NCBI RefSeq assembly: GCF_007997135.1
Contig: NZ_VORU01000014.1
Span: 1-64,000, forward strand
Source of the DNA: Aequorivita lipolytica
GTDB lineage: Bacteria; Bacteroidota; Bacteroidia; Flavobacteriales; Flavobacteriaceae
Direction: 5' to 3'
DNA: 64,000 bases
The translations under genes were made by a program, and so were the position numbers. Positions 3,121-42,557 of the stretch are shown here, piece by piece; the first letter of the stretch is position 1, and every line of letters begins with the position of its first letter. The notes beneath the pieces were generated by a model. The model did not search any database and was not told where the DNA came from. It worked only from the letters and a program-made list of their open reading frames with translations.

Positions 3121-3187
3121 CGTTCTAAAAAAATGTATCCTTTTCATCATTTGTAAGTCTACTCTATGAATTTTAAAAACTTAAAGT

Positions 3188-3301
3188 ATGAATACGTGTA
3201 AATGTACCAATTGCGATTGCACCAGATGTAATTGCACAGACTGCTCAAAGAATAACTGTCCCTGCGGAAAATGTGAATGCAATAAATGCAGTTGCTGTTA
3301 A
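3188..3301 (+). CDS. metallothionein-like cysteine-rich peptide
   Basis: A 37-residue open frame, ATG 3188 to TAA 3299-3301, with 14 cysteines (38%) arranged as repeated CxC and CxxC motifs: it starts MNTCKCTNCDCTRCNC and ends CNKCSCC. No aromatic residues and several Lys/Asn/Thr, as in metallothioneins, which bind Zn, Cu or Cd through thiolate clusters in the cytoplasm. It is followed 7 bp later by a strong hairpin terminator, so it is a complete short transcript, and then by a SigZ-type sigma factor gene. I know of no named family that fits exactly; metal binding is inferred from cysteine content and spacing. Coding is supported by the tight ATG-stop-terminator layout. Confidence 0.75.
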   Translation: MNTCKCTNCDCTRCNCTDCSKNNCPCGKCECNKCSCC

Positions 3302-3308
3302 ATTAAAT

Positions 3309-3344
3309 AAAGGTTGGCACAAAAGCCAACCTTTGTTCTATTTT
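3309..3344 (+). terminator. terminator after the cysteine-rich peptide gene
   Basis: A perfect 10-bp stem (AAAGGTTGGC at 3309-3318, GCCAACCTTT at 3325-3334) with loop ACAAAA, followed by a T-rich stretch. Confidence 0.85.
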
Positions 3345-3364
3345 AATAAAGTTAAGCTCTAATT

Positions 3365-3910
3365 ATGGAAACACAAAAAATATGGAAGCAGTTTAATGAA
3401 GAGCTCTATTTTTTCATCCTTAAAAAGGTAAAAAATGAAGCCGCTACTAACGATATTTTTCAGAATACGTTCCTGAAAATCCATAAAAACCTACATCAGC
3501 TTAAAGAAGAAGAGAAAATGAAAGCTTGGGTTTTTCAGATTGCGCGAAACGAGATTGCCAATTTCTTCAAACAGGAATCTCTTTATATAACTGAAGTAGG
3601 TAAACATACGGAAGCCCTTGAAGAAGAATATCAAAACATTTGTTGCTTTGATAGGTTTATAAACAATCTGCCCCCTATTTATAGAGAACCTATCGAATTG
3701 GTTTATCTAAAAGGAAAAAAACAACATGAAGTTGCGACAATACTGCATGTCAGTCACGCAAATGTGAAAGCAAGAATACGGCGGGCAAAGGCTATTCTAA
3801 AGAAAAACTTCAACGAATGCTGCAAATATGAATTTGACAAAAACGGCAGTTTGATTGGGGAGCCTAATTGCTCCCAATGCACTACTACTGCCTCAGAAAT
3901 TTCAAACTAA
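3365..3910 (+). CDS. sigZ: ECF-type RNA polymerase sigma factor, SigZ-like
   Basis: A 181-residue sigma-70-family factor. Region 2 lies at about residues 8-75 (IFQNTFLKIHKN; AWVFQIARNEIANFF) and region 4 at about 100-150 (LPPIYREPIELVYLKG; HEVATILHVSHANVKARIRRAK, the helix-turn-helix that reads the -35 element). The short linker and the C-terminal extension with cysteines (C152, C153, C169, C172, plus C93/C94) match SigZ-type factors of Bacteroidota. No anti-sigma gene is adjacent, unlike FecI-type systems. The cysteine tail could sense metals or redox state, which would fit the metallothionein-like gene just upstream; that link is inference. ATG 3365 begins 21 bp after the terminator region. 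Confidence 0.85.
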   Translation: METQKIWKQFNEELYFFILKKVKNEAATNDIFQNTFLKIHKNLHQLKEEEKMKAWVFQIARNEIANFFKQESLYITEVGKHTEALEEEYQNICCFDRFINNLPPIYREPIELVYLKGKKQHEVATILHVSHANVKARIRRAKAILKKNFNECCKYEFDKNGSLIGEPNCSQCTTTASEISN

Positions 3911-4287: not shown

Positions 4288-4992
4288 ATGAGCGAGCTGC
4301 CGGATGATTATTTAGACAACCACTATATACACAGAAGTAATTGGTTAAGAGCGGCCGTACTTGGCGCCAATGACGGTATTCTTTCTACTGCAAGTCTTGC
4401 GATAGGAATTGCTGCTGCCAGCGATTTAAGAGAACCTATTATTCTGGCTACCCTTGCAGGTTTGGTTGCGGGAGCTTTATCAATGGCAGCTGGTGAATAC
4501 GTTTCAGTCAGTTCTCAAACAGATGTGGAAAAGGCTGATATTGAAAGAGAAATTATAGAACTAAGAGAAATGCCCGAACTTGAATTACAACGTTTGGCAG
4601 AGATTTATGAAAAGAGAGGGCTTAAAAAAGAGACCGCTTTAACAGTTGCCAAAGAATTAACAGAGCACGATGTGCTAGCAGCTCATGTGAGAGATGAGTA
4701 GGGGATTAATGAAATAAGTCAAGCAAAACCGATTCAGGCCGCCTTTGCTTCGGGCTCAGCATTTACTTTTGGGGGAGTACTTCCATTGATTGTTGCGTTA
4801 TTTCTACCTCTTCAGAATATGGAATATTATTTATATGGATTTGCCATTGCATTCCTAATTGTTCTAGGTGCAGTAGCTGCCAAAACAGGTGGTTCAAGTA
4901 TTGGGAAAGCCATTATAAGAATTACATTTTGGGGAACGGTGGCTATGGGCTTAACAGCTTTGGTGGGTTATTTATTTGGAACAACCTTGTAA
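4288..4992 (+). pseudogene. VIT1/CCC1-family metal transporter interrupted by one amber codon
   Basis: The frame from ATG 4288 to TAA 4990-4992 spans 235 codons and reads as a full VIT1/CCC1 (DUF125) transporter, a family exporting or storing Fe2+/Mn2+. Typical segments are HRSNWLRAAVLGANDGILST and GLVAGALSMAAGEYVSVSSQ in the first half, and AFASGSAFTFGGVLPL and GGSSIGKAIIRITFWG in the second. The only interruption is TAG at 4699-4701, between RDE and GINEISQAKP, where relatives usually have Leu, so one base change (TTG to TAG) explains it. No frameshift or other lesion is visible. It is either a recent pseudogene, a strain mutation, a sequencing error or a read-through site. It belongs to the metal/stress group starting with the cysteine-rich peptide. 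Confidence 0.85.
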
Positions 4993-42418: not shown

Positions 42419-42551
42419 GTTGTAGGTTATCGGCTGTCAGTTGTTTCTTGGCTCTTGGCTCTTGGCTCTTGGCTCTTGGCTCTTGGCTCTTGGCTCTTGG
42501 CTCTTGGCTCTTGGCTCTTGGCTCTTAGCTCTTGGCTCTTGGCTCTTGGCT
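42419..42551. repeat. 7-bp tandem repeat, 15 copies of CTTGGCT plus four diverged heptads
   Basis: From 42447 to 42551 the unit CTTGGCT is repeated 15 times without a gap; only copy 12 differs (CTTAGCT at 42524-42530). Just before it, in the same phase, come four diverged heptads (GTTGTAG, GTTATCG, GCTGTCA, GTTGTTT; 42419-42446). The array lies between the uvrB stop and the start of the metalloprotease-like gene, both on the minus strand. Confidence 0.95.
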
Positions 42552-42557
42552 CTAAAA

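Follow-up and report, generated by a model that had tools for sequence, protein, structure and literature searches.

CorE and CorE2 of Myxococcus xanthus (ECF44, now ECF238) are metal-responsive sigma factors that act without an anti-sigma factor and carry a cysteine-rich tail as well as cysteines in the linker (PMC8999054, PMC3107203). The phyla for which a survey from 2011 recorded CRD sigma factors were Proteobacteria, Acidobacteria, Verrucomicrobia and Nitrospira; Bacteroidota was not among them (PMC3107203). In OrbS of Burkholderia cenocepacia, four C-terminal cysteines constitute an on-board metal sensor (PMC9023288). The papers searched give no assigned role for SigZ; among papers with an open licence, none was found to tie SigZ to metallothionein, metals or arsenic, or to describe a unit like the present one.

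The SigZ-like factor described here lies in a stretch of 64,000 nucleotides, referred to as the window, that forms the start of contig C6 of Aequorivita lipolytica (Flavobacteriaceae). Like CorE and CorE2, it is encoded without a linked anti-sigma gene and has a C-terminal cysteine extension together with cysteines in the linker between sigma2 and sigma4. The gene is preceded by that of a short, metallothionein-like (MT) peptide. The locus comprises the following features:

3134..3162, + strand: predicted SigZ-dependent (ECF-type) promoter, with -35, spacer and -10 conserved ahead of the peptide gene
3188..3301, + strand: MT-like peptide gene, 37 residues, 14 cysteines, no histidine
3309..3334, + strand: intrinsic-terminator-like hairpin, predicted attenuator in the gap between the peptide gene and sigZ; in its 13-pair form it spans 3306-3337
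3365..3910, + strand: SigZ-like ECF sigma factor gene, 181 residues, sigma2 and sigma4
3641..3646, + strand: Cys93-Cys94 in the sigma2-sigma4 linker, invariant in the close clade, Cys94 being kept in distant relatives
3818..3880, + strand: C-terminal cysteine tail Cys152-Cys153-X15-Cys169-X2-Cys172 beyond sigma4, candidate sensor

The peptide gene and its linkage to sigZ

The product of the peptide ORF (3188-3301) is MNTCKCTNCDCTRCNCTDCSKNNCPCGKCECNKCSCC. SigZ was found at E < 1e-50 in 12 of 99 related genomes including the host, at 13 loci, and close homologues of the peptide occurred in exactly these genomes, always directly upstream of sigZ. The initial annotation had proposed the 37-residue ORF with 14 cysteines as a real gene and had made this depend on conservation of the small ORF beside sigZ in relatives; both the gene and its conservation held. 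In a codon-level alignment of 24 distinct 37-codon ORFs all 14 cysteines were invariant, 13 of the 14 cysteine codons alternated silently between TGT and TGC, and the length and the stop codon were fixed. The non-cysteine positions were variable and at most moderately conserved. The pattern is that of a coding sequence conserved for its cysteine scaffold, with the cysteine codons under strong purifying selection.

Searches of Pfam and NCBIfam, metallothionein profiles included, returned no family for the peptide at E <= 1, and PDB sequences gave no match at E <= 10, which leaves it without solved relatives. PLSDB plasmids held no copy of the peptide. A role in a defence system was rejected because PADLOC gave zero matches, the peptide included, and a reading as a RiPP precursor was rejected because the neighbourhoods are devoid of conserved maturation genes. 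The peptide shows the properties that define metallothioneins as a functional class: fewer than 100 residues, 14 cysteines among 37 residues, several CxC motifs and invariance of every cysteine. Peptides that are free of histidine and rich in CxC typically form metal clusters. We infer that the peptide is a metallothionein and would bind metal.

In named genomes the peptide lies 42-52 nt upstream of sigZ at each of the 16 full-length loci; the carriers are Aequorivita, Salegentibacter, Christiangramia, Maribacter, Psychroflexus, Roseivirga, Polaribacter, Joostella, Pedobacter and a Flammeovirgaceae MAG. Six of the seven peptide profile matches in 392 Bacteroidota genomes adjoin sigZ, and more distant SigZ proteins (34-41% identical) carry a version of the peptide with 11 cysteines. 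Exceptions to the pairing are genome G632, which has a close SigZ and no peptide, and genome G174, which has the peptide and no close SigZ. Across the 6-kb flanks the peptide gene and sigZ were the only genes common to the neighbourhoods, which indicates that this pair is the unit. With the peptide as the sole conserved neighbour of sigZ, the absence of an anti-sigma gene, noticed earlier in the host locus, was borne out. Two diverged MT-sigZ units (L036 and L037), separated by about 16 kb, share a contig of Aequorivita sp. CIP111184.

A defective VIT-type transporter downstream had also been assigned to the module. The VIT1-family gene (window positions 4288-4992) consists of two in-frame VIT1 halves split by a TAG at 4699-4701 and is, judged by this reading frame, a point-mutation pseudogene. 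The term defective was thus appropriate; membership in the module was rejected because the transporter is not a conserved neighbour and does not occur near sigZ in 16 other loci. Elsewhere, the window contains an array of the heptamer TCTTGGC (42446-42553) with about 15 copies and 98% matches.

Predicted promoter and intergenic hairpin

The motif ahead of the peptide gene has the extended -35 element TGTATCCTTTT (3134-3144) and the -10 element GTCTAC (3157-3162). Its consensus is approximately TGTATCyTTT-N13-GTCTaCT or, with the adjoining letters, TGTATCyTTTt-N12-aGTCTaCT. With a single exception, the 31 MT-sigZ loci keep the motif at a distance of 53-61 nt, mostly 54-55, from the peptide ATG. 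The mean information of the motif was 1.28 bits per position, compared with 0.41 upstream of it (26 distinct sequences). The exact pattern occurred at 11 sites in 59 genomes, confined to the SigZ genomes of the genus and present once per MT-sigZ unit. In 395 genomes of the family it was found at 14 sites, 11 of which precede MT-sigZ, and its control at none. In the host genome, with one mismatch allowed, the MT-sigZ operon was the only match. A search for a larger host regulon with two mismatches gave 18 sites versus 19 for the reversed-pattern control, with the proviso that weak or divergent sites could escape it. Because the motif tracks the sigma gene and disappears where that gene has been lost, the promoter appears to be read by SigZ itself, which would amount to autoregulation.

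The two loci that depart from the pairing differ in this region. In L128 (genome G174), where the peptide is retained without a close SigZ, the motif is degraded, which represents a natural case of loss. In L174 (G632:C11:736500-744500), the close SigZ without a peptide is located just after a tRNA-Arg gene and faces a TonB-dependent receptor gene that starts 49 nt downstream of an exact promoter of the SigZ type. This receptor is a possible alternative target of SigZ in G632.

The initial annotation had credited the peptide gene with its own start and a strong terminator. The hairpin is present and shows covariation, 6 of 10 pairs being changed on both sides with 96% of the cells paired (0 of 500 shuffles); it also folds much more stably than its shuffles (z = -6.4). 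A search of Rfam returned a single sub-threshold chance match. The terminator had been taken as the mark of a separate gene; since the conserved promoter stands only ahead of the peptide and none is found in the peptide-sigZ gap, the hairpin is better explained as an internal attenuator within one operon. Expression of sigZ would then probably depend on read-through, which would yield much peptide and little sigma factor.

The sigma factor, its relatives and a possible inducing signal

The sigma factor matches Pfam Sigma70_r2 at residues 12-71 and Sigma70_r4_2 at residues 94-143, both above the cut-off, and with sigma2 and sigma4 as its only regions it is an ECF sigma factor. Its top NCBIfam family is SigZ (TIGR02959 / NF007215), matched over nearly the full length with scores below the equivalog cut-offs (142.4 against 168.65 bits for TIGR02959 and 151.2 against 212 for NF007215). 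The C-terminal portion of the 181-residue ORF contains ECCKYEFDKNGSLIGEPNCSQC. PDB profile matches place the end of sigma4 at about residue 150, and all four tail cysteines (152, 153, 169 and 172) were invariant in the SigZ comparison. The earlier description of the ORF at 3365-3910 as an ECF sigma factor with C-terminal CC and CxxC motifs was therefore correct. An AlphaFold model of SigZ built from 17 sequences reached a pLDDT of 58, a quality too low to reveal a metal site.

The 392 Bacteroidota genomes contained 46 SigZ-type loci, distributed over 45 genomes. Twelve of them, the host included, are of the peptide-upstream type; 7 have unrelated cysteine-rich peptides of 26-48 residues upstream or downstream; 13 encode ArsM or ArsI/CadI in the flanks that were compared, several above NCBIfam cut-offs; and 2 have thioredoxin and an efflux-type permease. 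A promoter of the type TGCrTCyTTT-N-GTCT lies ahead of most of the other cysteine-rich peptides (L108, L110, L112, L114, L137, L138, L141), and the same type sits between sigZ and ArsM or ArsI in L106, L118 and L122. The peptide-upstream loci cluster together in the tree as a single group (support 94/59; a single change in 96% of bootstraps). Two of the 38 MT-type loci in the tree adjoin arsenic genes (L176 and L177, from two genomes); in both, peptide-sigZ follows directly behind a chrA-type gene, arsR, a family-less gene (DUF), an arsC-like gene and acr3 on the same strand. Within the genus, the presence of ACR3 did not correlate with that of sigZ. Taken over the wider SigZ family, these neighbourhoods suggest arsenic or soft metals as the signal.

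Other tails were observed in SigZ relatives. Those of L106, L107 and L113 end in CCCC, an arsenite methyltransferase being located beside L106 and L113. In L129, L130 and L136 the CC tail motif is absent and PhzF-family genes follow, which suggests a separate functional branch.

The most economical account, which we consider likely to be right, is an autoregulated, self-sensing SigZ without an anti-sigma factor, with the metallothionein as its main or only output. A single ECF-type promoter (3134-3162), putatively read by SigZ itself, would drive the 14-cysteine peptide first and then, by leakage through the terminator, SigZ at a lower level. By analogy with CorE and CorE2, the tail cysteines (CC-X15-CxxC), perhaps together with the linker CC, would bind a thiophilic metal or metalloid and thereby switch SigZ on. 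The peptide would bind the same ion, lower its free level and turn the loop off. The departure of the SigZ tail from the patterns of CorE, CorE2 and OrbS and the peptide-free SigZ of G632 count against this account. The metal or thiol stress module originally suggested, an MT-like peptide with a cysteine-tailed sigma factor lacking an anti-sigma partner, finds strong support in the exclusive co-occurrence, the common ECF-type promoter and the invariant cysteines. The conserved promoter, the covarying hairpin and the other SigZ lineages with cysteine-rich peptides or arsenic genes are new beyond that suggestion.

The most promising lead for the inducer at present is As(III) or an ion of comparable softness, since other SigZ branches adjoin arsenic genes behind the same promoter type. 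In a wider form, SigZ of Bacteroidota would be a one-component factor activated by direct binding of As(III)/Sb(III) to its tail, with interchangeable effectors (MT-like peptides; ArsM, ArsI or ACR3); we hold this form tentatively, as possible rather than probable. A serious contender, though one we would not rely on, is induction by a divalent or monovalent metal (Cd, Zn, Cu), as with CorE/CorE2, arsenic playing no part in this clade. The SigZ tail opens with CC like that of the Cd/Zn-responsive CorE2 (PMC9023288), and sigZ of L046 adjoins a cation-efflux-like transporter whose N-terminus is, from its sequence only, of a metal-binding type. Moreover, most MT-type units lie away from arsenic genes, and ACR3 does not follow sigZ within the genus; both observations count against the arsenic lead. 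However, arsenic genes adjoin 13 of the 31 SigZ loci that lack the MT peptide, as well as 2 of the MT type, whereas the same arsenic probes gave one weak methyltransferase match and nothing more in 44 control loci.

It is unlikely that the peptide regulates SigZ, as a tiny anti-sigma factor or a metal-bridged partner that holds the cysteine tail until metal arrives, instead of serving as a bulk buffer. The strict one-to-one linkage, the absence of another anti-sigma gene and the abundance of cysteines in both the peptide and SigZ would fit such a function, but other SigZ lineages exchange the peptide for unrelated cysteine-rich peptides or arsenic enzymes, and the close SigZ of G632 is without it, as expected of an effector; in addition, outside its cysteines the peptide shows only moderate conservation. 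We regard as quite improbable a thiol or redox response, in which the tail would sense disulfide or electrophile stress and the peptide would be a thiol buffer. The tail relies on cysteines alone and thioredoxin adjoins three SigZ relatives (L175, L135, L139), yet the permease that accompanies thioredoxin is related to SaoE/Cu-Zn efflux carriers, the linked enzymes are arsenic or metal genes and not peroxide or thiol genes, and the CxC-rich, histidine-free composition is generally that of metal clusters. That the short ORF, which matches no family, is a chance or non-coding stretch such as a leader RNA is refuted by the codon-level conservation described above (invariant cysteines with silent codon variation, fixed length and stop), and we give this explanation practically no credence.

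Significance and comparison with known systems

The analysis provides SigZ with predictions for its promoter, its target and its class of signal. It also brings to light a family of cysteine-rich peptides of 30-48 residues that occurs across Bacteroidota and is represented in neither Pfam nor NCBIfam. If the self-sensing account is true, the operon would be a compact autoregulated sensor-plus-buffer cassette that could serve as a component of metal or arsenic biosensors, and cysteine-tailed "on-board sensor" sigma factors would extend to Bacteroidota. A SigZ that senses As(III)/Sb(III) would add a third regulatory route to arsenic resistance, next to ArsR repressors and two-component systems.

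Classic ars operons are regulated by the ArsR repressor. The ars operons of Bacteroidota (ArsR, ArsC, ACR3, ArsM, ArsI) adjoin other SigZ branches as well as two MT-sigZ units, and SigZ loci differ from the classic arrangement by the added sigma factor. SmtA/BmtA and MymT are small, cysteine-rich and contain CxC, as does the peptide, which differs from them in its 37 residues, its lack of histidine and the absence of detectable homology. Within the SigZ family (TIGR02959 / NF007215), the Firmicute and Vibrio examples are without the peptide. OrbS senses and is inhibited by Fe(II) and controls a siderophore system, and the tail pattern of SigZ differs from that of OrbS. CorE/CorE2 tails have the pattern C-X4-C-X2-C-X-C or CC-X3-C-X2-C-X-C (PMC9023288), in contrast to CC-X15-CxxC in SigZ, and the CXC of CorE-like linkers is replaced by an adjacent CC. 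Of the hallmarks of CorE-like factors (ECF44/ECF238), SigZ thus shares the absence of an anti-sigma gene, and neither the linker CXC nor the C-terminal CRD pattern was found; unlike CorE, its predicted target is a single operon with a metallothionein. By analogy, SigZ would work like CorE without being a member of the CorE group.
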